The notes under the pieces were generated by a model. The model was given only the letters and a program-made list of their open reading frames with translations. It did not search any database and was not told the origin of the DNA. The position numbers and the translations under genes are program-made. A stretch of DNA of 58,602 nt, taken from IMG/VR virus record IMGVR_UViG_3300047498_000072, positions 1 to 58,602 of that record; one strand, written 5' to 3'. This DNA is from a virus. Below are positions 4,220 through 31,465 of this stretch, in pieces (positions within the stretch are counted from its first letter, which is position 1; every line of letters starts with the position of its first letter).

Positions 4220-4222
4220 ACT
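4217..4222 (+). promoter_or_regulatory. Leaderless-type -10 (TAGACT)
   Basis: TAGACT overlaps the upstream stop codon and ends 8 nt before the ATG at 4231. No Shine-Dalgarno is present. Confidence 0.45.
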
Positions 4223-4230
4223 CCGCGCGC

Positions 4231-12374: not shown

Positions 12375-12382
12375 GAGTCAGA

Positions 12383-12410
12383 GTATTAGGCCGCGGCGGA
12401 GCGTTGTCAA
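12383..12410 (-). promoter_or_regulatory. Sigma-70-type promoter for the VWA gene
   Basis: On the minus strand: TTGACA (12410-12405), a 16-bp spacer, TAATAC (12388-12383). It is one of four near-identical promoters in this block and ends 8 nt before the GTG. Confidence 0.8.
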
Positions 12411-12583
12411 CGCTTGTGGCGCGAATATTCGGGTGTCGCGTCGTCGCCGAAACGGACCTCCCGAATGGCGCGACGTGCCTTGCGCGCGCGCTCGTTCTCG
12501 GCGGCGTCGCGGACGAGCTCGTGGAGAGGGCGCGTCCATGCGGGCGTATTTGGCGCGTTGGGCCGAGGCTTGCCGGAGCTCAC
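12407..12583 (-). CDS. Small basic/charged protein
   Basis: This 58-residue protein starts at a GTG that forms a GTGA overlap with the DUF488 stop. The segment RPLHELVRDAAENERARKARRAIREVRFG is a strongly amphipathic charged helix. Its stop codon coincides with the -35 of the VWA promoter. No family recognised. Confidence 0.55.
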   Translation of the reverse strand: MSSGKPRPNAPNTPAWTRPLHELVRDAAENERARKARRAIREVRFGDDATPEYSRHKR

Positions 12584-13104
12584 GCGATCACCTGTCCGCC
12601 GTCGAGCCACCGCCCCCCCTGCCATGAGAGATGACGGAAGCGGAGAGCGGGAAGCCTGGGCTCGATGAGGTGGTGCCGGTGACAGCTGGCCGAACCAGCC
12701 TCCGAACACATGAGGACGAGGCGCCGTCCGCGGGCCACGTCCGCGGCGAGCTCAGCGATCCCCGCGGGCGTCGGACCGGGGGAGCCGCCCCAATCCCCGC
12801 CGAGCCGATCGCCGCGCCACTCGTATCTCGCGCCGAGTAGTGCCGACAGCTCAATGCGCCAAAACCCCCGCCGCGTGTAGATTACGCGGCCCGAGGCGTA
12901 GCGGACCCTAGCCCCCGTACGGACGACGTCCGACTCGACGACGGGCCCCGGGAATGCGCGGACGTCGACGAGGGTGGCGTCCAGCCTCGTCACGAGGCTG
13001 GCGAGGGCGTCGGGCCCATCGAGCGACCCAGGCTCCCGCCGGGCGGCCGACTTGCTTCGCCCGCTGTCCCCGTAACCACAGGTGTAAATACCGGGTGTCT
13101 TCAT
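12580..13104 (-). CDS. DUF488-family protein
   Basis: This 174-residue protein shows the DUF488 layout: an opening IYTCGYGDS strand, a central LVDVRAFPGP motif, YEWRGDRLGG, and the signature CSEAGSASCHRHHLI near the C-terminus (Cys about 135, CHR about 141-143). The family has a conserved Cys/His pocket and an unsettled function. It lies between the ATPase terminator and the VWA promoter, so it may form its own transcription unit with the 58-residue gene. Confidence 0.8.
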   Translation of the reverse strand: MKTPGIYTCGYGDSGRSKSAARREPGSLDGPDALASLVTRLDATLVDVRAFPGPVVESDVVRTGARVRYASGRVIYTRRGFWRIELSALLGARYEWRGDRLGGDWGGSPGPTPAGIAELAADVARGRRLVLMCSEAGSASCHRHHLIEPRLPALRFRHLSWQGGRWLDGGQVIA

Positions 13105-13112
13105 TGACGCCG

Positions 13113-13143
13113 AAAGCTCGCCGTCCCGGGAGGGACGGCGAGC
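13113..13143 (-). terminator. Rho-independent terminator after the MoxR gene
   Basis: A perfect 12-bp stem (13116-13127 with 13132-13143) closes a 4-nt loop and is followed on the minus strand by TTT. It lies between the ATPase stop and the DUF488 start. Confidence 0.75.
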
Positions 13144-13164
13144 GGTTGATCCGGCGGGGGTCGG

Positions 13165-14334
13165 CTAAGCCGTGAGCTTGGGCGACCGGCGAGCGAGCCC
13201 GGCGAGGGCGGGCGAGAGCGAGGCGGCGAGCCCGCTCGCGAGGTCGTCCCATGCCGCCTGAAGCTCCGCGCGGCGATGGCCGATCTTCTGCCCGGCCCGC
13301 TTGCTCACCCCATCGGCGACGATCGCGTCGACCGAGTGCGCCGCCCTCTCGAGGCGTGCGACGAGCGACGGCCGAGCGGCGCGGAGCGCGGCGGCGTCGG
13401 TGGGGCGCGCGTGGTAGGCCGCGAGAGCGTCATCAATCCACTCGAGGGCGGACTTCGCGGGGCCGGCGTCGATCGCGTCGAGGGTCGCTTTGACCTGGAC
13501 GCGGTCTTCCGGCTTAGTCCAAAGCCCGAAACGAAGGACGCGAAAGTCGTCCATCGTGATTGCGGCGCGCCCGTCGAGCCATGCCGAGGCGCGGAGGACT
13601 CGCGCCAGGGCGATCCATCGGCGATCGGACGCGATGACGCCGACGTCCCTAAGCGCCCGCCGGATCTTGACGAGCGCGCGGACGATGCTCTCAGGGAGCT
13701 CGACGGCGGCGACCGCGGCGACCGCGTCGGCCCAGTCCGAGAGGGAGAGGCGGAGCGCCCCCGGCGCGTAGGTGGGCGGCGCGCTCATCAGGTCCGCCCA
13801 GGCGTCGTCTCCCTGGACGTATTCCACGACTTCGCGGACCACGAATCGATCGTAGATGGCCGCGAGGCCATCGTCCGCCGGGAGCTCGTTGGACGCCGCG
13901 ACCGTGAGGCGAAGCGGGATGCGCGCGCCCTGGTAGGTGCGCTCGTTGACCGCGGAAAGGAGCGTGTTCAGCGCCGCGTCCGATGCCTTGAAAAACTCAT
14001 CCAGGAAGGCCGTCTCGACGGCGGCGAGCTTGCCGTCAAGCGCTCGCTCCCAGCGGTCCGCTTTCAGCGCCGAGAGCTTAACCGGGCCGAAAAGGCTGTC
14101 CTCGGTCGAGAACTTCGTGACCAGCGTTTGGAACGTCCGCGCGTCGCTGAAGTGCGAGAGGAAGGCGAGGAATAGGGCCGACTTGCCCGTCCCGGGCGGC
14201 CCGATCAGGAGCGCGTTTTGCCCCGAAAGCGAGGCGAGAACGATCGCTTCGACGGCGGCCTCGCGCTCGACGTAGCTCGCGGCGAGCGAATCTTGGATGC
14301 CCTGGAACGTGGCGCGGATGGTGTCGATCGTCAT
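13165..14334 (-). CDS. MoxR/RavA-type AAA+ ATPase
   Basis: This is a 389-residue protein. Walker A is GPPGTGKS (residues 45-52), Walker B FLDEF (110-114). It is followed by the RavA-type KASDAALNTLLSAVNER and then RLTVAASNELP as the sensor region. The C-terminal 150 residues form helical AAA+ lid and accessory regions. MoxR ATPases remodel or metallate partners together with VWA proteins; the VWA protein is encoded downstream on the same strand. It has its own promoter, leader hairpin, SD and terminator. Confidence 0.9.
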   Translation of the reverse strand: MTIDTIRATFQGIQDSLAASYVEREAAVEAIVLASLSGQNALLIGPPGTGKSALFLAFLSHFSDARTFQTLVTKFSTEDSLFGPVKLSALKADRWERALDGKLAAVETAFLDEFFKASDAALNTLLSAVNERTYQGARIPLRLTVAASNELPADDGLAAIYDRFVVREVVEYVQGDDAWADLMSAPPTYAPGALRLSLSDWADAVAAVAAVELPESIVRALVKIRRALRDVGVIASDRRWIALARVLRASAWLDGRAAITMDDFRVLRFGLWTKPEDRVQVKATLDAIDAGPAKSALEWIDDALAAYHARPTDAAALRAARPSLVARLERAAHSVDAIVADGVSKRAGQKIGHRRAELQAAWDDLASGLAASLSPALAGLARRSPKLTA

Positions 14335-14364
14335 GTCATCTCCCCTTGGCCCCTTCGCGGGGCC
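14335..14364 (-). promoter_or_regulatory. Leader hairpin (GCGAA loop) plus SD of the MoxR gene
   Basis: On the minus strand, GGCCCC-GCGAA-GGGGCC (14364-14348) abuts an AAGGGGAG Shine-Dalgarno before the ATG at 14334. Nearly the same hairpin/SD module precedes the gene starting at 15672. Confidence 0.55.
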
Positions 14365-14385
14365 GGTGCGGTGTCGCGAGAGTTA

Positions 14386-14413
14386 ATATTAGTCGCCGTA
14401 GAAAGATTGTCAA
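14386..14413 (-). promoter_or_regulatory. Sigma-70-type promoter for the MoxR gene
   Basis: Minus strand: TTGACA (14413-14408), 16-bp spacer, TAATAT (14391-14386). The predicted 5' leader is about 45 nt. Confidence 0.85.
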
Positions 14414-14425
14414 CGCTCATTCAAA

Positions 14426-14458
14426 GAAAAACCCCGGCCCCCTCTCGAGGGTCGGGGT
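14426..14458 (-). terminator. Rho-independent terminator after the 382-residue gene
   Basis: On the minus strand, a GC-rich stem with CCCCG/CGGGG ends and a GAGA-type loop is followed by TTTTT. It lies 66 nt past the stop of the gene at 14524 and just before the MoxR promoter. Confidence 0.75.
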
Positions 14459-14523
14459 GATCCCGGGTCACGGCGGCGAGCCCGCGGGGAGGCTACGGCT
14501 CACCCCGTGAATCCCTGCCAAAT

Positions 14524-15672
14524 CTACTCGGCCGCCACCGCGGCGTCGGGCGCCGGGCTCGGCGGCTCCGCCGCGGCTTGGCGGTTCGCCAGGCGCGTAG
14601 CCCAAGCCTTCCGCCCGGCCTCGGCCATCTTGGCCGCGAACGTCCCTGGGACGGGCGCCGCGGCGGATTGCTTGGCCGCGGAGCTCGCGCGCTCCTTCTC
14701 GAGGCTCGCGAGAAACTCCACGCGGATCTCCTCTGCGCGCTCACGGATGCCCGCGGCGAGGTCTTCGAGGACGCCCTGATAGAGATTCGCGCGGGAGATG
14801 ATCCCTTCCGCGAGCTCGACGCGCCGCTCGATCGCGTCGCCCCTCATGCCGAGGCGGGCGGACTCTAGATCCTTCGCGAGGTCGGCGAGCTCGCCGTCGA
14901 GGGCGCCTGAGACGGCCCCCTGCGCGGCGGCGTTCGCGTCGGGCGAGGCGACCATCGGGATGGTGATCGGCGCGAAGCCGAGCTTCGCCAGCCCGCCCGC
15001 GAGGGCGCGCCAGCGGCCGAGCTCTCCCGGGTGGGCGAAATAGACGCCCCCCGCGGCGCGGAGCGGGACCGCGTGAAGCTCGTGGGCTGCCTTCACGAGG
15101 GCCGCCGAGATGTCCTTCGCCGCGACGTGGGTCACGGCGTGGTTGGCCCGATAGGCGATGCTGCGCGCCCACTCGATGCCGACCGGGTCGGGTGTGCCCC
15201 CGGCGACGTCCGCCGCCGCGACGTTGCCGTTCGGATCGACGGACACGCGAGCGACCGAGTCAAACGTGTCGCCCTTCGTGTCGTCACCGCGCGTCACGCG
15301 GTAGACGAACACGGTGGCGTCGACGCTCTCGGCCGCGCGGACGGCGTAGCCCTTAGGCTTGACGCCCTCCGCCGCGGCCCGCGTCAGGGCCGTCTCGGGC
15401 GCGAGCGCGTCGGGGATGAGCTTCGCGAGATCCGCCGCGCCGAAAAGCGCCTTCGCGTCGGCGCGCGCGACGTCCACCCCCTGCGCGTTCCAGCTCAGGA
15501 GGAACCCGATGTCCACGCCGCCCTTCGCGGTCGTATCGGCCGCGACGGCGGCGAGCTTGTCGGCCGCCTGGCCGTTCCCTTTCTCGTGAGAGTCGCGCGC
15601 CGGCTTGGGCGCCGGCTTCGCGGGCTTGGGGGCGGCGGCGGGCTTGGATGCGGTCTTCGTGGTCGTCTTCAT
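14524..15672 (-). CDS. Conserved protein of the MoxR block (possibly DUF6744-like)
   Basis: This is a 382-residue protein. A Lys/Ala/Pro-rich disordered N-terminus (about 1-35) is followed by an alpha/beta core with VDATVFVYRVTRGD (about 117-130), AAGGVYFAHPGELGRWRALAGGLAKLG (about 210-235), then long acidic helices. The last 70 residues are basic and Ala-rich. It resembles proteins found beside AAA+ ATPase genes in high-GC phages, perhaps DUF6744; this is from memory and unconfirmed. It has its own promoter, a long structured leader and its own terminator. Confidence 0.65.
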   Translation of the reverse strand: MKTTTKTASKPAAAPKPAKPAPKPARDSHEKGNGQAADKLAAVAADTTAKGGVDIGFLLSWNAQGVDVARADAKALFGAADLAKLIPDALAPETALTRAAAEGVKPKGYAVRAAESVDATVFVYRVTRGDDTKGDTFDSVARVSVDPNGNVAAADVAGGTPDPVGIEWARSIAYRANHAVTHVAAKDISAALVKAAHELHAVPLRAAGGVYFAHPGELGRWRALAGGLAKLGFAPITIPMVASPDANAAAQGAVSGALDGELADLAKDLESARLGMRGDAIERRVELAEGIISRANLYQGVLEDLAAGIRERAEEIRVEFLASLEKERASSAAKQSAAAPVPGTFAAKMAEAGRKAWATRLANRQAAAEPPSPAPDAAVAAE

Positions 15673-17927: not shown

Positions 17928-19424
17928 GTGGACGCTGCCGCCGCACTCGCTCTTGAGGCCCATCGCAAGCGAATCGGCGAACAGGCCGGCGCATTCATCC
18001 GGCCCGCGGACATCGTCCCGAACCCCGGGCCGCAGAGCGCCTTCCTGCGCTGCCCCGCCACCGAGGTCATGTACGGAGGCAGCGCCGGGGGCGGCAAAAC
18101 GATAGCGCTCCTACTATGGGCGATGCGGCACATCGGAGTGCCTGGGTACCGCGCGCTTCTACTACGTCGACAGTTCCCACAGCTACGTCGAACCTTGCTC
18201 CTGAAGAGCAAGGATCTTTATCCGTATGCGGGTGGAAGGTGGGTGGCTGGCGAGAAGACGTGGATCTTCCCCAGCGGAGCAACGATCGAGCTCGGAAGCG
18301 CCGACAAGGAGTCGGATATCGAGAGGTATCTGGGGTCCGAATACGCAGCGTGCGGGTTTGACGAGGCCACGTACTTCGCTCCCTACCAGTTCCGCTACAT
18401 GCTCTCGCGTCTTCGCACGACCGTCCCCGGGCTAAATACGCAGCTCCGGCTCGCGACGAACCCGGGCGGCCCATCGCACGACTACTTTCTCCGTCGGTAC
18501 GCGCCGTGGCTGTACCCGCCAGGCGAACCCGGGTGGAACGGCCCCTATCGCAAGCCCGGGGATGTCCTCTGGTTCCTGCCGATTCGCGACTCGGACGAGG
18601 AGCGCATCGTCCCAGCGTTCACGCCAGGCGCGACCTCGAGAACCTTCTTCGGCGCGAGGGTGACGGATACGCCGCAGCTCGCGGGGACGCAGTACGAGGC
18701 AAACCTCAACGCGCTCGACCGAGTAACGCGCGCTCGGCAGAAGGATGGCGACTGGATGGCGCGAGAGGCCGCGGGCGAGATGTTCAAGCGTGAGTGGTTC
18801 GATGTCGTCGACGCGTCGCCGCTCGACGTGTTCTACCGGGTCCGGTACTGGGACCTCGCGGGCACCGCGCAGAAGAACGCGACGGCGTCGAGCGCGTGGA
18901 CGGCGGGCGTGCTCCTGGCGTGCACCCACTCGGGCCTGATGTTCGTCGAGGACATGGTCCGCGAGCAGCTCTCGCCTGGCGAGGTCGAGGACACCATCGC
19001 GCGCACCCAGGCGATGGATGAGGGGCGCTTCGGTGTCGACGCGAGGGCCTTCGAGACGATCATCGAGCGCGACCCGGCGCAGGCGGGGAAGTTCCAGGCC
19101 TGGTACTTCGGGACGCGGATGGGGATCAAGGCCATCGCTCCCGTCGGCGACAAGGTCGCGCGCGCCAGGATCCCGAGCGCGCAGGTCGAGCACGGGAACA
19201 TGAAGCTCGTCCGAGGGCGATGGAACGAACCCTTCCTTCGCGAGGCCGAGAGCTTCCCCGATACGACGAAGGACCAGGTCGACTCGCTCTCCGGTGCTAC
19301 GCGGCGCGCGATGGTGAAGCTCTACCGCGAGCTCAAGCGCAACGGACGCGACCCGCGGGCGCTTCTTCGCATCAAGGTGGTTGCTCGGATCGGGGAGAAC
19401 GCCGCGCCCGACGAGGAGGACTAG
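17928..19424 (+). CDS. Terminase large subunit
   Basis: This is a 498-residue packaging motor. The ATPase domain has Walker A GGSAGGGKT (50-58) and Walker B CGFDEATYF (Asp145-Glu146), with ATNPGG as the coupling motif (about 176-181). The C-terminal RNase H-like nuclease has RYWDLAGT (Asp309), a central acidic region and KDQVDSLSGA (about 437). Start is GTG. It translocates DNA through the portal and cuts the concatemer. Confidence 0.95.
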   Translation: MDAAAALALEAHRKRIGEQAGAFIRPADIVPNPGPQSAFLRCPATEVMYGGSAGGGKTIALLLWAMRHIGVPGYRALLLRRQFPQLRRTLLLKSKDLYPYAGGRWVAGEKTWIFPSGATIELGSADKESDIERYLGSEYAACGFDEATYFAPYQFRYMLSRLRTTVPGLNTQLRLATNPGGPSHDYFLRRYAPWLYPPGEPGWNGPYRKPGDVLWFLPIRDSDEERIVPAFTPGATSRTFFGARVTDTPQLAGTQYEANLNALDRVTRARQKDGDWMAREAAGEMFKREWFDVVDASPLDVFYRVRYWDLAGTAQKNATASSAWTAGVLLACTHSGLMFVEDMVREQLSPGEVEDTIARTQAMDEGRFGVDARAFETIIERDPAQAGKFQAWYFGTRMGIKAIAPVGDKVARARIPSAQVEHGNMKLVRGRWNEPFLREAESFPDTTKDQVDSLSGATRRAMVKLYRELKRNGRDPRALLRIKVVARIGENAAPDEED

Positions 19425-19485: not shown

Positions 19486-22400
19486 GTGAGCACTCCCCGC
19501 AGCCGAGTCGGGTCGCCTTCGGGCGGCAGAAGCCAGGGACGTTTCCTTCAGCCGGCGCCGCGCGGAGCAGAGCGCGCCGCCGCTCCGCGCGTCGGGAGCC
19601 CGAGCGACCTCCTCGACATGAGCGCGATCACCCGCAGCCTCTTCGCGCGGCACATGCCGTATGCCGAGAAGTTCCGGCCCTTCTACGGGCGGATCGACAT
19701 GCGGATGATCCAGGACGTTCTGGCGATGGCCGACACCGGGATCATGACCCCGATCGCCGACCTCGGGCGCGAGAGCTCGTCCCTCGACCCCCACCTCCTC
19801 ACCGTCGCGCAGAAGCGGTTCGGCGCGCTCGCTGCGCTCGACTTCAAGGTCGACGCCGTGGCCTGCACGAAGGCAAACGGACTCGACCAGAAGATCGCTG
19901 ACGAGGTGGCGGATGACGTCCGCGCGATGCTCAAGGGCATCACGAACAGGCAGGATGCGATCTACGACCTCGCGTGGTCGCTCTTCGACGGGCGCGGAGC
20001 ACTTGAGATCGACTGGGTGCGCGTGAGCGGGCGGTCCCCCTATCAGCCCGTGTCTCTCGACTGGATCCACCCGCGCAGGCTCGCGTTCGGACCAGACCGC
20101 GAGCTACGCGTGATCGACACCTTCACGTCGGGTCGCGGATGGTGGAGCAGGAACGGCTTCGCGCTCCGCGACTACCCGGGGAAGTTCGTCACGTGGGAGC
20201 CGCGCTACTTCAGCGACTACCCGGAGCGAGAGGGGCTGCTGCGGCGCTCGATGTACTGGTCGCTCTTCAAGCGCTTCTCCGCGCGCATGCGGATGGTCCT
20301 CACGGAGCTCTTCGCGATCCCGTGGCGCGTTGTCGAGTTCCCGGCGACGACCGAGTTCCACGAGACGAGCTATGAGGACCTCGACGAGGCCGAGGACCGC
20401 GCGGAGGCCCTCGGCGGGCAGAACACCGTCGCGATGCCGCCGGGCGGGAAGCTAAATGTCGAGTGGCCGGGGGAGAACAGCGGGCAGCTCTTCGAGCTCA
20501 CGCGGACAGGCGTGAACGAGGAGATGAGCAAGCTCTGGCTCGGCAACGTGGGAACGACCGACGCGATCCAGACCGGGATGGGCTCGAACGTCGCCACGGT
20601 CCACAAGGGCGAGCAGAACATCTACCTCACGCGCGACGCGTTCGGCGTGGGGGCGCGCATCAAGGCGTGCCTCGTCGACGTGTGGGTCGTGCTGAACCGA
20701 GGGGCCGATTACCTCCGCTACTCGCCGACGTGCACCCTCACGGCCGAAGACGAGGCGGACCGAACGGCGGAGCAGAACGCGCGAGGGACGGCCATCGCTC
20801 TTAGCGTCCCGGTGTCGCTCACCGACTACTACGAGAGCGCGCAGATTGAGCCGCCCGGAGAGGACGAGCCCGTGATCGTCGGCGTGAACGACCCGACGAC
20901 GGGCAAGGTCACGACGAAGATCGTTTACCCGAAAGACTGGAGCGGCGCGCGCATCGGCGAGACTCCGCCCCCGGCAGGTCCGCCCGGCGGAGCGCCCCCG
21001 GCGCCTGGTGGCTCGACGCCACCGCCGAGCTCGGATGGTGGGAGCACTCCGCCGTCTGCGGGTGGCCCCCCAGCTGTGCCGACCGCGCCGAATCCCCCCG
21101 CGGCACCCGCGAGCACGAAGGCTCCAACGGCTCCGACTCCCCCGAAGCCCCCGACCCCCACCGTCGCTCAGCCGGGTGACGTGCACTCGCACATCAAGGC
21201 GGGACTTGGCCTCGAGCGGCCGGCGCCGACGCCGAGCGGGACCGAAGACGAGCTCGTCGACAAGCACACGCGGGAGGCGAGCCGACTCACGGCTGGCTGG
21301 TGCCGGACGATGCTCGATGCCGTCGACGATCAGGGGACGCTCGCGGACGCGAAGGTCGCGCTCTCGCGGGCAGCGGCGGCGCTCCCGCTCGATGCCTTCG
21401 CGCGCGGCATCGAGCGCGCGACCGTGACATCGCTCGCGCTCGGCGCGATGGACGCGGCGTACCAGGCGGAGCACGACCACGAGGAGGATGCGTTCCGCCC
21501 GAGCTTCGCGGCAGACAACGCGCGGACGAAGGACCGAACACTCATCCTCGGCGCGGGGGGCGTGCTCGGCGCAGTTCCTCCGATGGTCCAGGGCTTCACC
21601 CTGAAGCCTTTCAACGAGGCCATCGCCGAGTTCATGGGCAAGGCCGTTCTTCCCCGGCATCTCTTCGAGCGGCTGACGTCGGAGGCGAAGCGGCGCGCGT
21701 TCACCATCGCGGGCCTGTCGCAACAGACGATGCTCGACGTCGCGCACGACGAGCTCACGAAGAGCATCGTGGACGGCGACGACCTCGCGACGTTCCGCGA
21801 ACGGCTGGCCGAGCGCTTCGACAGCAACGGATGGACGCCGCTCAACCGGAGCCACGTCGAGACCGTCTTCCGAACCGCGATCAATGGTGCGTACAACAGC
21901 GGTCGGCACGTGCAACAGACGCAGCCCGCCGTGCTCGCGGCGCGCCCCTACTGGCAGATCCGCGGCGTGAAGGATGACCGGGCGCGCCCGGAACATGCCG
22001 CGGCGAACGGGAAGGTGCTCGCTGCAAGCGATCCTTTCTGGACGCGCGCGCCGCTCCCTTGGGGGTTCAACGAGCGTTGTACCAAGACCTCGCGTTCGGC
22101 AGCGGACCTCGCCAGGCTCGGCCTCTCGGTGTCCAACGGCGCAGACCTGAAGGGCCTCCCGGACGAAGACTTCAAGGCCGGGGGCGGCTTCACGTTCGAC
22201 CGGAGCCTCTTCGGCTACGACGGCGTGCGCCTCGCGAACGGGCGCAGGATTGCGGGCATCCCGCGCTTCTTCGGCGGCACGCTTCTCGTCCTCGTCGACC
22301 GTCCCCAGGGAACCGTCGAGACGGGGACCGCGAAGGACGGCACCCCATGGTCGCGGACATGGTCCTTCGACGGCGGCGAGCTTCCTGGCACGTCGGCCGG

Positions 22401-25400
22401 CGACGGCGAGCCGATCGACGTCTTCTGTGGCCCGGACGCCGCAGCGCCAATGGCGTTCTGGATCGTCCAACGCGGCGATGACCCGGAGCTCCGTCTCGCG
22501 CTCGGGTGGGCGAACATCGACGAGGCGCGTGCGGCGTACCTCTCGGTCGTTCCCGCCGAGATGCTTGACCGCGTGCTCCCGCAGCCCGTCGAGCACGTGA
22601 AGGCGCTCCTTGGGCTGCCCCCCGACGTGCGGATGCTGGAGGTCCGCCGCACGCTGGACGGTCACGACGATCAGGCGCGCGACGACCACGGCCGCTTCGC
22701 GCCCGGCGGCGGCGGAAGCGGGTCGTCGAGCTCGAAGAAGGAGCCCACCAAGCCGACCGGCAGCGGTGGGCTCGCGGCGAAGATCGGCGGAGCGCTGTCG
22801 AAAGCCGCGAGCGCCGCGGTGGACAAGATCAAGGGCGCGCCAGGGGCACTCAAGGACGCGCTGATGAAGCAGGTGGGAACCTTGAAGACCGCTGCGCTCG
22901 GGATCAAAGCCGCCGTCACCGGGAAGCCTGTCTCGCACGAGCAGAAGGCGGCGATGAAGACCGTGGCGATCAAGATCGCGACGAAGGTCGCGTTCTCGGC
23001 GGTGAGCGCGGCGCTCCCTGGCCTCGGGCATGCGGTCGGCGCGGCGCTCGAACACCTGCCTCATGCTGCGGAGATCGTCGCGCACTGGGTGGCGCACCAC
23101 GCCGCCGAGCACACGGTCGAGCACCTCGCGAAGCACGCCGCTGGCGTTCACACGACAGCGCTCCGCCTGCTCGAGGCCGACGACACGGGCGAAGGCATCA
23201 CCGACGGCGAGGCCGGGGCCTTCATCGACCAGGTCTGCGACAGCGTCTCGCACGTGCTCGGGGCGATGAGCGATGACGACTGGGAGTCGATCCTCGGGCC
23301 GCATCTCCCCGCGGTCGAGCCGAAGAAGGCCGACCACACACGCCAGCCGCGCAAGCCGGACGGCGACTTCGCGCCCCCGGCCAAGGCCGCGGGGCATGCG
23401 GGGAACCCGCCCGCGGGCGCCGAGCTACCGGACGAACACGGCGCGGCCCTCGACGCCGCGGAGGCGACACGTGGCGTCGAGGGCGACCGCTCCGAGGATG
23501 CTCAGAAGGCGAGCGCCTTGTGCAAGGCGGAGCCGAACGCGGCGAGCCACACGGCGGCGGCGAACGCCCACTTCATCGCCGCTGCGGCATGCGGGACGAA
23601 CGATCTCGCGGGGCAGGCGGCGCACAAGGCCGCGGGCGTCGCGCACCAGAACGCGGCAGCGGCGTTTCACGAGCGCTTCTGCGTCCGCGTCGCGCTCGAC
23701 ATCGAGGCGACCATCGCCGCGCTCGATGTCGAGTCACTAGTCCAGCTCGAGCATGCGGACGACCATCCGCACGGACCCGACGGGAAGTTCGTCCCCACCG
23801 GAGGCGGTAGCGCGCTGTCCAAGATGCAGGTCGCCGGGAAGAAGGCGAGCGCGACGAAGAAGTCGAACCAGGCGGCAGAAGCCTCCAAGAGCGCCGTTAC
23901 CGCGGAGGATCACCACGCTGCCGCATCAATGCACACCGCAGCGGCAGCGGCACATTCCGAGCTCTTCGCGGTGACCGGCGACCAGAAACACGCTGACCTG
24001 GCTGGCCAACACGTCGACGCCGCGAACGCGCACACCGCGCTCCTCCCGGCGAAGGGGGAGACGACGGTGACTGTCACGCCGGCAGCCTCGCCCAAGCCTC
24101 CGAGCGTCGACGGGGCGAAGGGCGATCCGAAGATTGCGGACCTGAAGGCCAAGGCCGATGCCGCCAAGGACAAGCACGCGAGCGCCGTCGCCGAGGGGAA
24201 GCTCGGCAAGATGCAGATCGCTGGACTCATGGCAGCGGCCAGCAAGGCGACGGCGGCGCACGCGGCAGCCGTCGCGAGCGTAGCCACCTCCGCCGCGAGC
24301 AAAGAGACGCCGCTGCCGGTAGCGAGCCCGCCGCCGGCAGCGGCTGTCGCGGCCCCCGCTACAACAGCGGCTCCGGCGGCACCTCCGCCCGGGAGTCAGT
24401 ACGCCAAGGGGCTCGCCGCCACCGCGGCGGCGAATGCCCACGCGGACAAGGGCGATGCCGCGCTCGAGGCGGGCAACATCGCCGAGGCGCACGAGCACTT
24501 CGCCAACGCGGCGGCGGCTCACGACAAGGCGTCATCGCACTACAAGAACTCCGCGGACAACCCGGCGGCGGCGCAGTTCAAGGATGAGAACCTCGCCGCT
24601 TCGGCAAATGCGAAGGAGACCTCGCAGGCGATCAAAGACAAGATGTCGACGATCAAGGCTTCCATGCCGGCAGCACCAGCGGCACCGCCGGCGCCGCACG
24701 GTGGTCTAGATCCGTATGAATCGCCGGTCGTGACCGCTCATCCAGGACATGCCGCTGCGGCGGCAGCCATCGCCTCCAGCGCCGCCGGTCTTTCGCCCGC
24801 GGTCGGACCTCCGCCGGAGGGCTCCGCCGTGAAGTCCCTGATCCACTCGCTCCCGGTCGCCACCTATAGCTCGGCGCCACCGGCTGTCGCCGCGCACGTG
24901 ACGAGCTACATCGACCAGAACCTCGACAAGCTCTCGCCTCAAAACATCAAGGCCATGATCGGCTTCTCGAACGGGCACGACTTCGAGATTCGCGCTCTCG
25001 AGCGCGGAGTCCCGAAGGCCGAGCTCATCGCCGGGCGCATCAAGAAGGGGGAGGGGACGGAGGTCGCGACCGCTCACGTCGAGACGTCGTTGGGCATGGT
25101 CGGACACCTTCACGAGGCGTTCGGAAAGATCGCGTTGTCTTCGCCGCCGCCGCCTGTCCTCTATCGCGGGATGAGCGTCTCAGATCGGACGGCGCACGAG
25201 ATGCTCACGCAAAATACGTGGTCGACGTCCGGGATGAGCTCCTCGGCGTCGTTGAACACCCATACGGCCTACGGCTTCGCCTCGAAAAACATGGGGAAGC
25301 CCGACTACCGCGGAGAGCCCATCAAGCACGAGTTCGTCGTCGTCGTGGAGAAGGCGCACGCCAGCCTTCCGCTGACGAGCCCGAAGGTGAGCCCGCTCTA

Positions 25401-25506
25401 CCATGGCGAGCGCGAGATGATCTTGAGCCCTACGGCGAAGTACAACGTGACGAAGCGCGCGGTCGACAGTTCGGGGAGGGTGCACATCCACCTGCAAGAG
25501 CAGTAA
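19486..25506 (+). CDS. Portal-MuF-InPase-like-ADP-ribosyltransferase fusion protein
   Basis: This is one open 2006-residue protein. Residues about 55-460 are a DUF935/Mu gp29-type portal (EGLLRRSMYWSLFKRFSARM). A Pro-rich linker (485-565) leads to a MuF minor head domain (about 600-870; FRTAINGAYNSGR, DDRARPEHAAANGKV, GFNERC). Residues 910-1045 resemble the InPase domain of polyvalent proteins (GDGEPIDVFCGPD, ALGWANIDEARAAY). DxxGxF-type joints occur near 1067, 1292 and 1432, separated by Ala/His-rich helices. Residues about 1785-2006 look like an R-S-E mono-ADP-ribosyltransferase: YRG (Arg1894), STS (1913-1915), EREM (Glu1975, Glu1977). Portal and MuF build the neck; the ART could modify host targets on injection. 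Portal and MuF are normally separate genes of about 500 and 300-450 residues. Confidence 0.85.
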   Translation: MSTPRSRVGSPSGGRSQGRFLQPAPRGAERAAAPRVGSPSDLLDMSAITRSLFARHMPYAEKFRPFYGRIDMRMIQDVLAMADTGIMTPIADLGRESSSLDPHLLTVAQKRFGALAALDFKVDAVACTKANGLDQKIADEVADDVRAMLKGITNRQDAIYDLAWSLFDGRGALEIDWVRVSGRSPYQPVSLDWIHPRRLAFGPDRELRVIDTFTSGRGWWSRNGFALRDYPGKFVTWEPRYFSDYPEREGLLRRSMYWSLFKRFSARMRMVLTELFAIPWRVVEFPATTEFHETSYEDLDEAEDRAEALGGQNTVAMPPGGKLNVEWPGENSGQLFELTRTGVNEEMSKLWLGNVGTTDAIQTGMGSNVATVHKGEQNIYLTRDAFGVGARIKACLVDVWVVLNRGADYLRYSPTCTLTAEDEADRTAEQNARGTAIALSVPVSLTDYYESAQIEPPGEDEPVIVGVNDPTTGKVTTKIVYPKDWSGARIGETPPPAGPPGGAPPAPGGSTPPPSSDGGSTPPSAGGPPAVPTAPNPPAAPASTKAPTAPTPPKPPTPTVAQPGDVHSHIKAGLGLERPAPTPSGTEDELVDKHTREASRLTAGWCRTMLDAVDDQGTLADAKVALSRAAAALPLDAFARGIERATVTSLALGAMDAAYQAEHDHEEDAFRPSFAADNARTKDRTLILGAGGVLGAVPPMVQGFTLKPFNEAIAEFMGKAVLPRHLFERLTSEAKRRAFTIAGLSQQTMLDVAHDELTKSIVDGDDLATFRERLAERFDSNGWTPLNRSHVETVFRTAINGAYNSGRHVQQTQPAVLAARPYWQIRGVKDDRARPEHAAANGKVLAASDPFWTRAPLPWGFNERCTKTSRSAADLARLGLSVSNGADLKGLPDEDFKAGGGFTFDRSLFGYDGVRLANGRRIAGIPRFFGGTLLVLVDRPQGTVETGTAKDGTPWSRTWSFDGGELPGTSAGDGEPIDVFCGPDAAAPMAFWIVQRGDDPELRLALGWANIDEARAAYLSVVPAEMLDRVLPQPVEHVKALLGLPPDVRMLEVRRTLDGHDDQARDDHGRFAPGGGGSGSSSSKKEPTKPTGSGGLAAKIGGALSKAASAAVDKIKGAPGALKDALMKQVGTLKTAALGIKAAVTGKPVSHEQKAAMKTVAIKIATKVAFSAVSAALPGLGHAVGAALEHLPHAAEIVAHWVAHHAAEHTVEHLAKHAAGVHTTALRLLEADDTGEGITDGEAGAFIDQVCDSVSHVLGAMSDDDWESILGPHLPAVEPKKADHTRQPRKPDGDFAPPAKAAGHAGNPPAGAELPDEHGAALDAAEATRGVEGDRSEDAQKASALCKAEPNAASHTAAANAHFIAAAACGTNDLAGQAAHKAAGVAHQNAAAAFHERFCVRVALDIEATIAALDVESLVQLEHADDHPHGPDGKFVPTGGGSALSKMQVAGKKASATKKSNQAAEASKSAVTAEDHHAAASMHTAAAAAHSELFAVTGDQKHADLAGQHVDAANAHTALLPAKGETTVTVTPAASPKPPSVDGAKGDPKIADLKAKADAAKDKHASAVAEGKLGKMQIAGLMAAASKATAAHAAAVASVATSAASKETPLPVASPPPAAAVAAPATTAAPAAPPPGSQYAKGLAATAAANAHADKGDAALEAGNIAEAHEHFANAAAAHDKASSHYKNSADNPAAAQFKDENLAASANAKETSQAIKDKMSTIKASMPAAPAAPPAPHGGLDPYESPVVTAHPGHAAAAAAIASSAAGLSPAVGPPPEGSAVKSLIHSLPVATYSSAPPAVAAHVTSYIDQNLDKLSPQNIKAMIGFSNGHDFEIRALERGVPKAELIAGRIKKGEGTEVATAHVETSLGMVGHLHEAFGKIALSSPPPPVLYRGMSVSDRTAHEMLTQNTWSTSGMSSSASLNTHTAYGFASKNMGKPDYRGEPIKHEFVVVVEKAHASLPLTSPKVSPLYHGEREMILSPTAKYNVTKRAVDSSGRVHIHLQEQ

Positions 25507-25509
25507 GAC

Positions 25510-25812
25510 GTGGCGATGGGCGACGACCGCGCGGACAGGTTCGGAGACACGGGCGAAGGGCTGCAATCCCTCTCGCCCGCGGCGCTTGCCAGCATCGCCA
25601 GCGACAAGGCGCGGGTCGCGCAGGGGGCCATCGCGGAAGCCGTGGACAAGGACACGGCGGTGGCGAACGCGGAGGCGTACATCGCCGCGCGCGGGGCCGC
25701 GACCGCCTACAAGATGGCGTCCCAGGCCGACGGGGACGCCTGGGACGACGCGCGCAAGGCTTGGGAGGCGACGGCTCTCGCGTACCGGGACCTGGCGAAC
25801 GCGGCGGGCTGA
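25510..25812 (+). CDS. Small helical head-region protein
   Basis: This 100-residue, GTG-started protein begins 3 nt after the fusion gene. It is almost all helix and rich in Ala (AALASIASDKARVAQGAIAEAVDKDTAVANAEAYIAARGAATAYKMASQA), with regular AxxxA spacing. Similar short helical repeats occur in the linkers of the preceding giant protein, so it may bind them. No family recognised. Confidence 0.6.
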   Translation: MAMGDDRADRFGDTGEGLQSLSPAALASIASDKARVAQGAIAEAVDKDTAVANAEAYIAARGAATAYKMASQADGDAWDDARKAWEATALAYRDLANAAG

Positions 25813-25873: not shown

Positions 25874-27553
25874 ATGACCACTGCGTCCCAGACGATCAAA
25901 GCCGCCGCTGGCGGGTCCATGTTCGCCGCCCAGGTGGAGAACATGCGGAAGAACTTCGAGGGCCGAATGGCGGCGACCGAGAGCGAGCTCGGGGTCGACC
26001 TCCCCGCCGTCCTTCCGGTCGACTTGAAGGGCGCGATCCTCGCCGCAGGGACGCCGATGGTGCCCTACGTGGCGGCGACCTCTGTCGGGTCGTACCTCAA
26101 CAACTCGAGGTCGAGCGTCATCCGCTGGCCCGCAGGCGTCCAAACGGCGGTCTGGACCTCGGTCGACCTCCCGCTCGACGTCGACACGAGCTACCCGATC
26201 ACGGTTCGGGCTCTGGTCTCGAAGAGCGGCGCGACCGCGACGGACGTCCCCGCGCTCGCCATCGGCGTTTACGCGCAGCTCGTGGGGGCTCTTCACGATG
26301 CGAGCGCGAACCTCGGCGGGACGACGCCAGCTCTGACGAGCCTGCAAGCCGCGCTCCCCGCGAAGACGATCACGCAGCTCTCGCTCCCGATCTACCTCCC
26401 GCCGACGCCGCCCGCGCGCCTCTCGATCTCGATCAACCCCACGGGAACCGACGTCACCGACGACGTCGTGCTCGACGGCGTATGGATCGAGTTCATGCGC
26501 AAGCCCGGCGTCGCGCGGGCGCTGATGGACATCCGCTACGGCATCCTCGCCGCAGGGACGCCCATGGCGGCCTTCGGTGCGAGCGTCGGGGTGACGCTCG
26601 CGAACGCCAAGTGCGTCGGCGTCGAGTGGGCCGCGACGCACATCACGGCGGTTTGGGGGTCGTTCCCCCTCCCGCTGGACATGGACGTCACGAAGCCGTC
26701 CGTCGTCGTGATGCTCCTGAGCAAGACGGGGGCGACGGTGGGCGACACGAGCGCCTGCGTCCTCAGCTTGTTCGAGCAGATCCCCGGAGCGCTGGAAGAC
26801 GCGGGCTCGAACCTCCTCGGGACGGCCACGCCGATCGCCGCGCCGAGCGCGGCGGCAAAGACCGTCTCGAAGACGATCTTCGGCGTCGCACCCAACACCT
26901 TCACGGCGGGCCCGGCCAACTGCTCCTTCAGCATCACGCCCGGGACGCTCACGACCGACAACCTGATCTGTGAGGGCCTCTGGCTCGAGTATCAGCGCAC
27001 GCAAACGGGCGCGACCGGGGCCGCCCCGGTCGTGAACGTCGACCTCAAGGCGTCGATGCTCGCCGCCGGAACGCCGATGGCCGCGTGGGCAAACAACGCA
27101 GGCGCGAGCGCGCCCGGCGTCACGCTCAACAACGCCAAGGCCGTCGGTGTGAAGTGGAACAACTTCGCCACGCAGACGCCGGTCTTCTCCGACGTCGTGC
27201 TCCCGGACAACCTCGACACGAATCAGCCGATCGTTGTCCACGCGCTCGTGAGCAAGAGCGGCGCGACGGCGACCGACAACACCACGCTCGACATCGGCGT
27301 CTTCGAGCAGGCGCCCGGCGCTCTCGAGGATGCGACGTCGGGTTCGCTGGGCGTCGGGGGAACCACCTCCGCGCTGGTGGGTTCGCTCGCGGCAAAAACC
27401 GTCTCGCACCTCACGTTCACGATTCCGGCGAAGTCGCTTACCGCGGCCCCCGGGAGGCTCACCATCTCGGTCCAGCCCACGAACGGGTCGAACCTCACCG
27501 ACGACGTGCTCGTCACGAGCGTATTCTTGACGTACGCCGGAAAGACTGGCTGA
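25874..27553 (+). CDS. Head-associated protein of three tandem beta domains
   Basis: The 559 residues comprise three diverged copies of a roughly 165-residue beta-rich domain (about 50-211, 219-375, 390-557). Each opens with D(L/I)(K/R)..(I/M)LAAGTPM and contains (A/M)LVSKSGATATD-like and VFEQ-PGALEDA-like motifs. An N-terminal 45-residue helix may anchor it. Its position between portal/MuF and the protease, with no enzymatic motif, suggests a capsid fibre or decoration protein. The extreme regularity suggests recent duplication. Confidence 0.65.
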   Translation: MTTASQTIKAAAGGSMFAAQVENMRKNFEGRMAATESELGVDLPAVLPVDLKGAILAAGTPMVPYVAATSVGSYLNNSRSSVIRWPAGVQTAVWTSVDLPLDVDTSYPITVRALVSKSGATATDVPALAIGVYAQLVGALHDASANLGGTTPALTSLQAALPAKTITQLSLPIYLPPTPPARLSISINPTGTDVTDDVVLDGVWIEFMRKPGVARALMDIRYGILAAGTPMAAFGASVGVTLANAKCVGVEWAATHITAVWGSFPLPLDMDVTKPSVVVMLLSKTGATVGDTSACVLSLFEQIPGALEDAGSNLLGTATPIAAPSAAAKTVSKTIFGVAPNTFTAGPANCSFSITPGTLTTDNLICEGLWLEYQRTQTGATGAAPVVNVDLKASMLAAGTPMAAWANNAGASAPGVTLNNAKAVGVKWNNFATQTPVFSDVVLPDNLDTNQPIVVHALVSKSGATATDNTTLDIGVFEQAPGALEDATSGSLGVGGTTSALVGSLAAKTVSHLTFTIPAKSLTAAPGRLTISVQPTNGSNLTDDVLVTSVFLTYAGKTG

Positions 27554-27554
27554 G

Positions 27555-29567
27555 ATGAGGCTGTCGCGCTGCGCAGCTTTAGCGCTCCGCGCCATCTGGG
27601 CGTCGCGCTCGCCGGGCGAGCAGACGCCGTGGTTGGAGCACCGTCTCGTCGCGCTCGACGCGGCTCCCGTGGCGGCGACGGCGAACGACAACACGATCAA
27701 GACGCCCGTCGGCGACGCGCAGTGGATCCAGATCGCGACGGCGGGGCACTACAAGGGCCACGCCGCAGGCGAGTTCACGCTCGACGCACTGGTTTTTTCG
27801 CAGGTCGTCGGCAACTTCCGTAACCACCCGAGCTACGTGCGGGGCGACAACGGGCTCGGGGCCGCCTTCGTGATCCCGTTCGACTGGCGGCATGCGTCCG
27901 AGCAGCGCCCGAACGAAGGCGGCCCGACCGCGCCGCTCACGCAAGCCGCACAGGGCTGGGCGCTCGACCTCGAGATGCGGAGCAACACCGAAGACGGCAA
28001 GCTACAGCTCTGGGCGCTCACGGTCATCCTCGAGCCGATGAAAACGCTTGTCGCCCAGAAGAAGGTGCTCTGGACGAGCATCGCCATCTGGCCGAACAGC
28101 CCTGACCCCGTCACGGGCGCAAACATGGGCTGGTACCTCAGCTCGGTGGCGTTCACGAACGACCCCTTCATCCAGGGCATGCAGCCCATCGCGGCGGACC
28201 GCACCGGCGGTTCTTTCTTCGGTGGGTCGCGGTACATCGACCCCTACGCGCCGCCAGGGAAGCCGAGTGAAGTGCTCGAGGCTCTGCGCCGGATCTTCGG
28301 CCTCGCGGAGCTCTCTGGGCTCGCTGACGTGCTCGGCCAGATCGCCACGCTTCGCGCAGCGGCGCTCGGACAGGCTCTCCCGCCGGCAGGCGTCGACATC
28401 GCCGAACTCGTCGGAGCCCTTCGGATCCTGTTCAACCTCCCCACGCTCGCACCCGTTGAACAAGTTTTCGCCGAAAGCGATAAGCTCGTTGCAGCGCTGG
28501 CCGAGGAGCTGGGATCCTCGCAGACGAAGCCGACGTCATCGGCGACAACGACCACCGCAACCGTACAACGCACCGAGGCCCCTCTAATGAACGAGCTCCT
28601 TCAGTACCTCTGCTCCGCGCTGGGCATCGTCGGCGCGCCCACCGAGGCCGTCGTGCTTGCGGAGTGCAAGCGTCGTCGTCTCGAGAACGGCGCGCTCCGC
28701 CACTTGCTGGACCGCGTCGGCGGCGACAAGGGGGGCGACGGTGACGCCGTGACCGCGAGCGCGAAGATCAAGGCGCTCCTCGGCGCGGCAGGTGTCGAAG
28801 ACGTCGACGGCGCGACGAGCCAGCTCGTCCAGCGCTGCAGCGACGTGAAGAACCTGATGGAGATGGTTCCCGAGCTCGAGCAGATGATGGCCGAGGCCTC
28901 GGATGGCGACGACGAGGAGTCGATGGAGGACGTCCGCACCGCGATGCGCGTCCATTACAACGTCCAGGAGTGGGACCCCACCAAGCTGACCCGCGTCGAG
29001 AAGGACATCGCGAACGTGATGCTCTCGCACCGGACTGGGTCGGTCGACCTGGCCAAGCTCCTGGTCCGTCCCGAAGCTGGTAAGCCGGTCGACACCGCGA
29101 AGTTCATCGCGTCGGTCAAGGCCGTCCGAGCGGGCCTCCACCAGCGCAAGCTCGCGCGCGACGGCTTCCGCGCCGAATACCTCTCCGAGCCCGAGGCGCC
29201 GCCCGCGCCCGGGGAGCACTATCTCATGAGCCGTCTCGCGGCTCCGGGCAACAGCGGCACCGCCGCCCCCGCTCACCATCTCGCGCGCGCCGCCACCGGC
29301 CAGACGATGGGCCTCGGGCGCACCGCTCCGGCGATGTTCTCGGACCGGCCGGGTGCAGCTCCGGGCCCCGAGAAGCCGCTCGTCGACCTCGAACTCTTCC
29401 AGGGCAACCGCTCGCAACGGCTTCTCGCCGCTGCCCGTAAGGAGATGGGCGAGGAGACCTTCAAGGGCCTCGCCACCGAGCAGCAGTTCGCGGCAGCGCG
29501 TCAGCTCGGCAAGCGGCTCGCGGACCAGGGCGTCGACCTCACCCAGTACGACGTCGTCGTGGCCTGA
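27555..29567 (+). CDS. Phage I-like head maturation protease/scaffold
   Basis: This is a 670-residue protein. Residues about 50-215 match the Mu gpI-type protease: GHYKGHAAGEFTLDALVFSQVVGNF, FVIPFDWRHASE, QGWALDLEMRS, LWTSIAIWPNSPD, VAFTNDPFIQGM. The remaining 450 residues are helical and acidic, as expected for a scaffold removed during capsid maturation (DGDDEESMEDVR; LARDGFRAEYLSE). An internal ATG near 28587 (MNELLQYL) could make a separate scaffold, as with Mu gpZ; this is inferred. It precedes decoration and capsid genes as in Mu. Confidence 0.85.
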   Translation: MRLSRCAALALRAIWASRSPGEQTPWLEHRLVALDAAPVAATANDNTIKTPVGDAQWIQIATAGHYKGHAAGEFTLDALVFSQVVGNFRNHPSYVRGDNGLGAAFVIPFDWRHASEQRPNEGGPTAPLTQAAQGWALDLEMRSNTEDGKLQLWALTVILEPMKTLVAQKKVLWTSIAIWPNSPDPVTGANMGWYLSSVAFTNDPFIQGMQPIAADRTGGSFFGGSRYIDPYAPPGKPSEVLEALRRIFGLAELSGLADVLGQIATLRAAALGQALPPAGVDIAELVGALRILFNLPTLAPVEQVFAESDKLVAALAEELGSSQTKPTSSATTTTATVQRTEAPLMNELLQYLCSALGIVGAPTEAVVLAECKRRRLENGALRHLLDRVGGDKGGDGDAVTASAKIKALLGAAGVEDVDGATSQLVQRCSDVKNLMEMVPELEQMMAEASDGDDEESMEDVRTAMRVHYNVQEWDPTKLTRVEKDIANVMLSHRTGSVDLAKLLVRPEAGKPVDTAKFIASVKAVRAGLHQRKLARDGFRAEYLSEPEAPPAPGEHYLMSRLAAPGNSGTAAPAHHLARAATGQTMGLGRTAPAMFSDRPGAAPGPEKPLVDLELFQGNRSQRLLAAARKEMGEETFKGLATEQQFAAARQLGKRLADQGVDLTQYDVVVA

Positions 29568-30148: not shown

Positions 30149-31465
30149 ATGTCCCTCGCAACCTTCCTCGAGAAGAACAACCGCGTGCGCGGCGCAGCCA
30201 TCCGCGCCACGGCGCCTCGCGCCCCGGCGCAGCGCATCGTCGAGGCTGGTGCGGCGGCTTGGCGCGCTCCCACGGCGGCGGCGTTCACGCGCGACACTCC
30301 CAAGGGTACCGTCCCGATTCGCCTCCTCGGCGCGCCGGATGGGAGCACCAGGATCGGCTCGCTTCAGGTCCGACCCGGCGAGGCCATGGACCTCGTCTGG
30401 GACGAGGCGAAGGGCGCTCTGCTCGATCGGTCGGGGCAGGCCATCATGCTCGGCGGCATGTCGCCCAGCGATGTCCACGACCCGACCGAGATGGCGACCT
30501 TCCTCGCAGGCTACAAGAACGCGACCTTCCGACACCCGGAGATGTGTCAGGTCGTTCCCGTCAACTACGACGAGGACAAGTACCGCATCTTCGACTCGAG
30601 CGCGGCCTTCAAGCCCGTTCAGGTGAAGACCGACGACGACGCGCCGCCGGCCGAGATCCGGGTGACGTCGAGCCTCACGAACTACAAGGTCGTGGTCCGT
30701 CGCATCGCGGCGTTCATCCCCGACCCGACGATGCGCCAGGTCACGAATCCGGGCTACGACATCCGCTTCATCCACATGGAGCGCTGCAAGACGGCCATCG
30801 ACCTCGACTTGGAGCTCGACGTCCTCGGACCGAGTGGGCTGCTCACGACGGCGGCGAACTGGGGCACGAACCAGACCGTCACCCTGGCGGCAGGCTTCCA
30901 GTGGGGATCGGGCATCGGGTCGAGCGCTGGCGTCGGCGCGAACTCGGACCCGATCCACGACCTGCGCAACATGCGCGACAACTCGAACCAGCGCATCACG
31001 TCGTTCTGGATGAACGAGCACGTCGCCGGGATCTTCCTCGACCACCCGTCGGTGCGCGACTACATGCGGCAGAACTACGGCGACAGCGTCCCCGGCGCCG
31101 ACATCAAGGCGATCCGCGACGACGACGACTCGGTCGTGGACTTCAAGCTGACCGGCCTCGGGACCTTCCACGTGGTCTGCAGCCGTGTCGAGAACTCCCT
31201 CGGCACGCCTGCGACGACGGGCTACGTCATGCCGGACCAGGTGATCGGCGTCGTGCAGCCTGCCGGCGTCCCCACGAACGGCGAGCGCATCGCATCGGCC
31301 TACAACTTCCGCCGGCGCGGTCCCGCGGGCGTCGGGTTCTACACGCGCGAGGTGCGCTTCGAGGCGCGCGGCGCTGGCGGCACGATGATCATCGTCGAGG
31401 AGGCGTCGATCCCGACGATGACCTCGAAGTACAGCGGCGGGCAGATCGTCGGCGTCACCGCCTGA
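30149..31465 (+). CDS. Major capsid protein
   Basis: This is a 438-residue protein following the decoration gene, with an AGGAGA SD 11 nt before the ATG. The body shows HK97-like features: a basic N-terminal arm, DPTEMATFLAGYKNATFRHPEMC, NMRDNSNQRITSFWMNEHVAGIFLDHPSVRDYM (spine-like helix) and a beta-rich C-terminus (EVRFEARGAGGTMIIVEEASIP). Length and position fit Mu gpT-like capsids. A terminator-like hairpin follows, consistent with high expression. Confidence 0.85.
   Translation: MSLATFLEKNNRVRGAAIRATAPRAPAQRIVEAGAAAWRAPTAAAFTRDTPKGTVPIRLLGAPDGSTRIGSLQVRPGEAMDLVWDEAKGALLDRSGQAIMLGGMSPSDVHDPTEMATFLAGYKNATFRHPEMCQVVPVNYDEDKYRIFDSSAAFKPVQVKTDDDAPPAEIRVTSSLTNYKVVVRRIAAFIPDPTMRQVTNPGYDIRFIHMERCKTAIDLDLELDVLGPSGLLTTAANWGTNQTVTLAAGFQWGSGIGSSAGVGANSDPIHDLRNMRDNSNQRITSFWMNEHVAGIFLDHPSVRDYMRQNYGDSVPGADIKAIRDDDDSVVDFKLTGLGTFHVVCSRVENSLGTPATTGYVMPDQVIGVVQPAGVPTNGERIASAYNFRRRGPAGVGFYTREVRFEARGAGGTMIIVEEASIPTMTSKYSGGQIVGVTA

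Follow-up and report, generated by a model that had tools for sequence, protein, structure and literature searches.

A Mu-type phage portal fused to MuF, InPase-like, and predicted ADP-ribosyltransferase domains in a single open reading frame

The DNA analyzed here is IMG/VR virus record IMGVR_UViG_3300047498_000072, a whole virus contig of 58,602 bases (68% GC) that is referred to at its full length as the window. Directly behind the gene for the large terminase subunit, and ahead of head maturation, capsid, and tail genes (Table 1), it encodes a single protein with a calculated mass of 210 kDa. In this protein, a Mu-type portal is followed by a proline-rich linker, a MuF region, an InPase-like domain, a long alanine-rich spacer, and a predicted ADP-ribosyltransferase (ART). 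The initial annotation of this locus, made from the sequence alone, had described one uninterrupted open reading frame (ORF) of 2006 residues, and continuity of both the frame and third-position GC content confirmed that the ORF is real. No interruption was found across its 2006 codons, and neither a stop nor a second start lies between the fused parts. Third-position GC was highest in the fusion frame in all 100-codon blocks (0.71–0.96), with a narrow margin solely in two blocks, which start at residues 501 (proline-rich linker) and 1701 (alanine- and proline-rich), so nothing pointed to a frameshifted join. Large antisense ORFs overlapping the gene (e.g., 981 amino acids at 20452–23397) are a mechanical by-product of high-GC coding DNA.

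Three of the predicted domains were recovered above their Pfam gathering scores, in agreement with the initial annotation, which had named a DUF935-type portal, a MuF core, and an InPase-like segment. The portal domain scored 131.7 bits against PF06074 (Portal_Mu; gathering cut-off 23.9), PHROG 113 (portal) also matched the fusion, and solved Mu-type portals aligned over residues 75–470. The profile score, together with the terminase upstream and a Mu-type protease downstream, places the domain among Mu-type portals. Beyond it, proline accounts for 29% of residues 480–590. Several C5–C6 runs occur in this linker (20968–21160), where a −1 shift would lead to a stop within 7–69 codons and may thereby yield a short portal; that the runs comprise just 5–6 C, within a GC-rich and proline-rich stretch, weighs against such a shift. 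The MuF core scored 47.8 bits against PF04233 (Phage_Mu_F; gathering 29.6), the matching PHROG 220 is annotated as minor head protein and DNA pilot, and the segment is 42%–49% identical to the MuF part of fused proteins in sequences L005 and L006. Both this score and the gene cluster shared with portal and terminase are characteristic of the MuF polymorphic toxin family, as are the variable C-terminal enzymes that relatives carry on a common MuF stem. Members of that family are expected as a protein of their own downstream of the portal, whereas in this phage MuF is covalently joined to the portal within one gene product.

The InPase-like domain (45.4 bits against PF18823, the polyvalent-type InPase; gathering 26.8) retains the active-site motifs DGEPID (DGExxD) and GPD; the conserved Tyr-Gly of HYGYI, present in the aligned homologs of Pbunavirus, Myosmarvirus, and Tunturi_5, is missing. 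The predicted catalytic activity of the domain is uncertain. The alanine-rich spacer is probably helical and had no match when searched against Pfam and PHROGs. We considered G-x-F-A-P, which occurs in three copies between modules, as a possible signal for the protease, but the strict pattern is absent from the ORFs of relatives, and we make no claim for it.

Recognition of the ART domain depended on wider phage profiles. The last 227 residues alone had no match in Pfam, PHROGs, or PDB sequences, searches of the record itself with PF03496 and PF01129 returned nothing for ART, and tblastn of the fusion C terminus against phages and plasmids gave no credible match. A two-sequence profile, from the MuF tails of related contigs L177 and L178, did not separate the window from shuffled sequences. 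Two larger profiles, each excluding the window, comprised five tails (L177, L178, ZQG1, Donnerlittchen, and Leptolyngbya phage Lbo-JY12) or eight (the same five plus Percival, Goodman, and Mecenats66). The source tails themselves matched Pfam families (ART/ADPrib_exo_Tox, E ~1e-6 for L177 and L178; E 1e-12 to 1e-16 for ZQG1 and Donnerlittchen; weaker for Lbo-JY12). With the five-tail profile, the window C terminus scored 18.5 bits (500 shuffles, ≤4.7), and the fusion (P0001) was the sole window ORF above threshold. The eight-tail profile raised the score to 26.2 bits (E 2.6e-7 per 1000 sequences; top of 1000 shuffles, 4.7), and hhalign of the C terminus gave P 1.7e-5 and a probability of 78. 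In the profile alignment, R1894 aligns with the strand-1 catalytic arginine and E1975-R-E1977 with the E-x-E column, as first annotated, whereas the serine motif had been misplaced by five residues: the F-x-S-T-S column aligns with G1916-M-S-S-S, i.e., S1918–S1920, and not with STS1913–1915. Catalytic arginine, serine motif, and E-x-E accordingly occur in the order of R-S-E (Alt/VIP2-like) ARTs, alongside similarity at the profile level.

Structure prediction, suggested in the initial annotation as a check on the ART fold, gave weaker support. An AlphaFold2 model of the region had a predicted local distance difference test (pLDDT) score of 36 without an alignment and 53 with a three-sequence alignment, which included two previously recognized ARTs. 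Foldseek searches of PDB with this low-confidence model returned mostly ARTs among the top 15 matches (HopU1, C3, ExoS/ExoT, and Certhrax; best E 0.01), and the named leading matches in BFVD were mostly phage ARTs (Alt, ModA, VIP2, and others; best E 3e-4). Given the low TM-scores (0.2–0.4) and the recognized ARTs in the input, the fold evidence is supportive rather than independent proof. We regard the C-terminal domain as a predicted R-S-E ADP-ribosyltransferase on the strength of independent profiles, with Foldseek adding lesser support. A secreted-type ART pair (L180 and L181) was used neither as a yardstick nor for modeling.

With InPase and a predicted ART on one MuF chain, the fusion resembles the polyvalent proteins of Iyer et al. 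(2017), which carry several effector domains per virion-associated chain; its own virion association is suggested by genomic context. The parallel with polyvalent proteins had been drawn previously for this gene and holds for the pairing of domains. It does not extend to the kind of ART, which in polyvalent proteins is described as H-Y-D, of the HYD2 clade in most (PMC5512222), whereas the R-S-E motifs found here set the domain apart from that clade.

Table 1. Coordinates of the fusion gene, its parts, and neighboring genes in the window
Feature	Position	Strand	Evidence or remarks
Terminase large subunit	17928..19424	+	PHROG 979, E 1e-95; immediately upstream of fusion
Portal-MuF-InPase-linker-ART fusion	19486..25506	+	One frame of 2006 aa; GTG start at 19486, last base of stop at 25506
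Mu-type (DUF935) portal domain, residues 98–451	19777..20838	+	Pfam PF06074, E 5e-38; Mu-type portal structures 8rka and 9khx by phmmer
Proline-rich linker, residues ~481–585	20926..21240	+	Portal/MuF joining point; composition
MuF region, residues ~590–905 (Pfam core 754–866)	21253..22200	+	PF04233, E 2.8e-12; PHROG 220, E 1.3e-39
InPase-like domain, residues 933–1025, with GDGEPIDVFCGPD	22282..22560	+	PF18823, E 9e-12; alignment to Pbunavirus and Myosmarvirus portal InPase domains
First G-x-F-(A/V)-P inter-module motif (G1069)	22675..22716	+	Pattern scan; further copies at G1293 and G1433
Alanine-rich spacer, residues ~1078–1780	22717..24825	+	Composition, 21%–32% Ala
Predicted R-S-E type ADP-ribosyltransferase domain, residues 1815–2006	24928..25503	+	Window-free profiles, hhalign, Foldseek
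100-aa ORF	25510..25812	+	ORF list; start 4 bases past fusion stop
559-aa protein	25874–27553		Between fusion and protease genes; three repeats; direct DNA repeats ~500–530 bases apart
Mu protease I homolog	27555..29567	+	PF10123 Mu-like_Pro, E 1.1e-8; PHROG 328 head maturation protease; syntenic in relatives
Major capsid protein	30149–31465		Downstream of protease
Tail sheath	40613–42649		Downstream of capsid; tape measure and baseplate genes after

The surrounding genes identify the virus as a Mu-headed, contractile-tailed phage. The 100-amino-acid ORF behind the fusion had no Pfam match, and roles as an immunity protein or an assembly helper are guesses. Small ORFs (89 and 95 amino acids) also lie directly behind the MuF-ART genes of ZQG1 and Donnerlittchen, a parallel of position. 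The 559-amino-acid repeat protein matched no family and is possibly a decoration protein. Further upstream, a minus-strand block (11208–15672) encodes a vWA protein (11208–12374), a bpMoxR ATPase (13165–14334), and an unassigned protein of 382 amino acids (14524–15672); the MoxR gene fits the model for the MoxR-vWA-beta-propeller ternary system (PF20030, E 1.8e-41). Near the start of the contig, a PAPS-reductase-like gene (3452–4219) overlaps a ParB/methyltransferase-like gene (4156–5142), possibly forming a DNA-modification or early-function pair.

Relatives were recovered from IMG/VR using Mu-type alignments and then an alignment of the window with L005 and L006, and the portals of this clade are 33%–42% identical to that of the window. 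Portal and MuF are fused in eight contigs representing five lineages (L162/L163, L164, L166/L167, L168, and L170/L174), where the ORF stops just past MuF and the protease gene comes next. Seven fused relatives were checked at the portal-MuF junction, and each has a proline-rich stretch there. Nine other contigs (L165, L169, L172, L173, and L175–L179) encode portal and MuF separately, often with a tail on MuF; the tails of such split relatives include ART (L177 and L178), an ATLF-type metalloprotease (L169), and GNAT (L173), with HExxH motifs in the tails of L173, L175, and L179. At least two changes between the fused and separate states are required by the portal tree. Given eight further contigs with the fusion, joining of portal and MuF is neither an error nor unique; the window represents an effector tail added to a fused portal-MuF, and thus merges both clade arrangements. 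The InPase-ART extension occurs in none of the relatives. The clade MuF proteins of L169, L173, and L175–L179 resemble the window in gene order and polymorphic enzyme tails, but differ in having portal and MuF in separate genes and no InPase matches. That MuF carries the effector in split relatives indicates that the effector belongs to MuF, and that functional phages can make MuF as a chain of its own.

The MuF genes of this clade showed other variations. In both fused L168 (2–3784) and split L169 (11512–14268), MuF is split by an intein-like insert of ~270 amino acids (PF14890, Intein_splicing, E ~1e-5) at the same position, in the second half of the MuF NCRC motif. The MuF-ART of L178 (11452–14121) has an extra ~300 amino acids between MuF and ART that had no Pfam match and appear kinase-like by eye. 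GNAT-like tails were found on MuF in L173 (11365–14205; Pfam match), L175 (5317–8157), and L176 (1801–3915), followed by a HExxH-type stretch in L173 and L175.

Searches for another portal-MuF-ART protein in 50,697 phage records and 398 genomes (the phylum of the single genome match, a gammaproteobacterial metagenome-assembled genome) found none. Portal_Mu was detected in 66 of these genomes (longest open frame, 904 amino acids) and phage-type ART profiles matched in eight (every frame ≤469 amino acids). The Donnerlittchen ART was matched by 45 of the phage records, and among the matches listed none fell in a portal-annotated feature. Neither the ART nor a close copy of the entire gene was recovered in IMG/VR searches. 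The ART model did match a BFVD model from an uncultured Caudovirales phage labeled ‘Phage portal protein, HK97’ (A0A6J5S481; 1201 amino acids; E 0.14, probability 0.89), which may be a second portal-ART fusion.

On balance, and with slightly better than even confidence, we favor the explanation that the fusion gene encodes a head polyprotein, the cargo of which is cut free and ejected with the DNA. The N-terminal portal would form the dodecamer and start the prohead and, because portal C termini point to the head interior, the ring would carry up to 12 MuF-InPase-ART copies into the head lumen. The protease I homolog could then cleave behind the portal crown, within the proline-rich linker or close to it, and the freed MuF-InPase-ART would constitute an internal head protein that leaves with the DNA into a new host. 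There, the ART would modify host proteins early in infection, like T4 Alt, with arginine as the most likely target in view of the E-x-E motif. We infer dodecamer loading and the number of copies, as well as cleavage, ejection, and the target. The released part would amount to up to ~157 kDa per copy and, by simple arithmetic, ~1.9 MDa per head with the full set of 12 copies retained.

Several observations are consistent with this polyprotein. A cryo-EM study of Mu reports that the C-terminal 124 residues of the portal gp29 are missing from the virion, a loss attributed to protease I (PMC11915804, citing Grimaud 1996). An alignment by way of SfMu maps the final ordered residue of the Mu-type portal to residue ~438 of the fusion, which is 40–50 residues ahead of the proline-rich linker, the region where we propose that trimming occurs. 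MuF-InPase-ART is joined at the normal trimming region of Mu-type portals with a protease I homolog encoded nearby, for which a polyprotein is the simplest reading. The initial annotation had offered either proteolytic release or 12 effectors ringing the neck, and of these the reported trimming and the adjacent protease favor proteolysis. Moreover, MuF proteins have been located in heads, with entry alongside the DNA proposed for their ART tails (PMC5576092, PMC9503650), and delivery and host modification would match the existing model of MuF toxin and T4 Alt action (PMC5576092, PMC5512222, PMC9503650). Against a released cargo, the ART could stay tethered and become active only on portal disassembly. 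In addition, the MuF protein of SPP1 (gp7) is present in 1–2 copies per capsid (PMC5576092), whereas the fusion forces 12, and the InPase-ART extension is known from one contig, with the joined gene representing one assembly.

Other explanations are each less probable. It is unlikely that the chain remains uncut, with 12 MuF-InPase-ART arms tethered to the portal crown that are structural, contact DNA, or act locally in the channel, and are never free in the host. Such arms would suit a gene whose parts are separated by no stop or second start, the Pbunavirus portals, which bear InPase without known release, and the view of Iyer and colleagues that the context could mean that packaging components are shielded against immune attack (PMC9503650). 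However, the Mu portal is reported to be trimmed at its C terminus (PMC11915804), a protease is encoded near the fusion gene, and relatives make MuF-effector as its own chain, which implies that covalent tethering is unnecessary for function. It is also rather improbable that the extension is in decay or carried along inactive, comprising a catalytically dead InPase and ART and a tail tolerated as filler in the head. The missing Tyr-Gly of the InPase, a divergent ART that Pfam misses and that was found on one contig only, and the low-complexity, alanine-rich spacer could all be taken as signs of decay, but the ART keeps each of its three catalytic motifs, the InPase retains DGExxD and GPD, and the frame is clean across 1100 codons with strong third-position GC bias.

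We give little credence to the alternative that ART and InPase work late in the producing cell and are not delivered, with the 100-amino-acid ORF perhaps serving as an immunity or control protein. The position of that ORF, 4 bases past the fusion stop, would fit, and MuF toxins of other prophages have been proposed to target competitors (PMC5576092). Yet the ORF has no family match, L177 and L178 have no conserved small gene after MuF-ART, and a late enzyme would need no fusion to a portal. Finally, a chimeric assembly that misjoined a portal-MuF gene to the effector gene of another phage is judged very unlikely. While the extension is present in one record only and absent from relatives, the join is in frame with uniform codon bias and GC content, the usual gene order is kept (terminase upstream; protease, capsid, and sheath downstream), portal and MuF are fused in eight further contigs, and ART tails sit at the same place in related phages.

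Little is understood about how phages load a set number of injected effectors into their heads. One simple, testable answer is suggested by a portal-MuF-effector chain encoded near a portal-trimming protease, namely that effectors enter the head on the portal ring and are released from it by cleavage. More tentatively, and at somewhat less than even odds in our estimation, the portal of this clade might be a general cargo loader, in which MuF and its effector are made as a portal extension, placed at exactly 12 per prohead, and then released by the protease. If true, this would constitute a fixed-number packaging route for injected effectors, with the portal as the addressing signal. The clade offers a natural comparison set for such questions, as it includes fused and split portal-MuF genes and tails with ART, metalloprotease, acetyltransferase, or none.

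Each pairwise join in the window protein has precedents, and the novelty implied by the initial annotation was in this respect overstated, although the full combination was not found elsewhere. Portal-MuF fusions have been published for Microbacterium phages of clusters EA3/EA5/EA8 and EB, those of EA being termed unusual (PMC7302621). As in the window, portal and MuF share one gene, but these are siphoviral actinobacterial phages with no effector reported on the fusion, MuF-ART being found in clusters EH and EJ (PMC7302621), whereas the window has a Mu-type portal, a proline-rich linker, and 1100 additional residues. MuF-ART fusions are likewise published and common (PMC5576092, PMC7302621, PMC9503650). 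For example, an R-S-E ART ends a MuF protein of the packaging module in Percival (gp4; Microbacterium), ZQG1 (Pseudomonas), Donnerlittchen (Janthinobacterium), and the EFV toxin, as it does here. Unlike in the window, the portal is a separate gene in Percival, Goodman, ZQG1, and Donnerlittchen, and no InPase match was obtained in the MuF-ART proteins of ZQG1 or Donnerlittchen. Portal-InPase fusions are also published (PMC5512222), and were confirmed here in Pbunavirus and Myosmarvirus records. The portals of Pbunavirus, BcepF1.124, and Myosmarvirus share with the window a C-terminal PF18823 InPase in one polypeptide (PMC5512222), but belong to family Phage_portal_3, are ~760 amino acids long, and have a separate MuF and no ART. 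T4 Alt, an R-S-E ART that is packaged in the head and delivered with DNA (PMC5512222), is the analog of the function proposed for the window, although it is a separate internal protein with no portal or MuF fusion. What is new, then, is the union of Mu-type portal, MuF, InPase, and predicted ART in one chain, within a clade in which the fused and split states of portal and MuF alternate.

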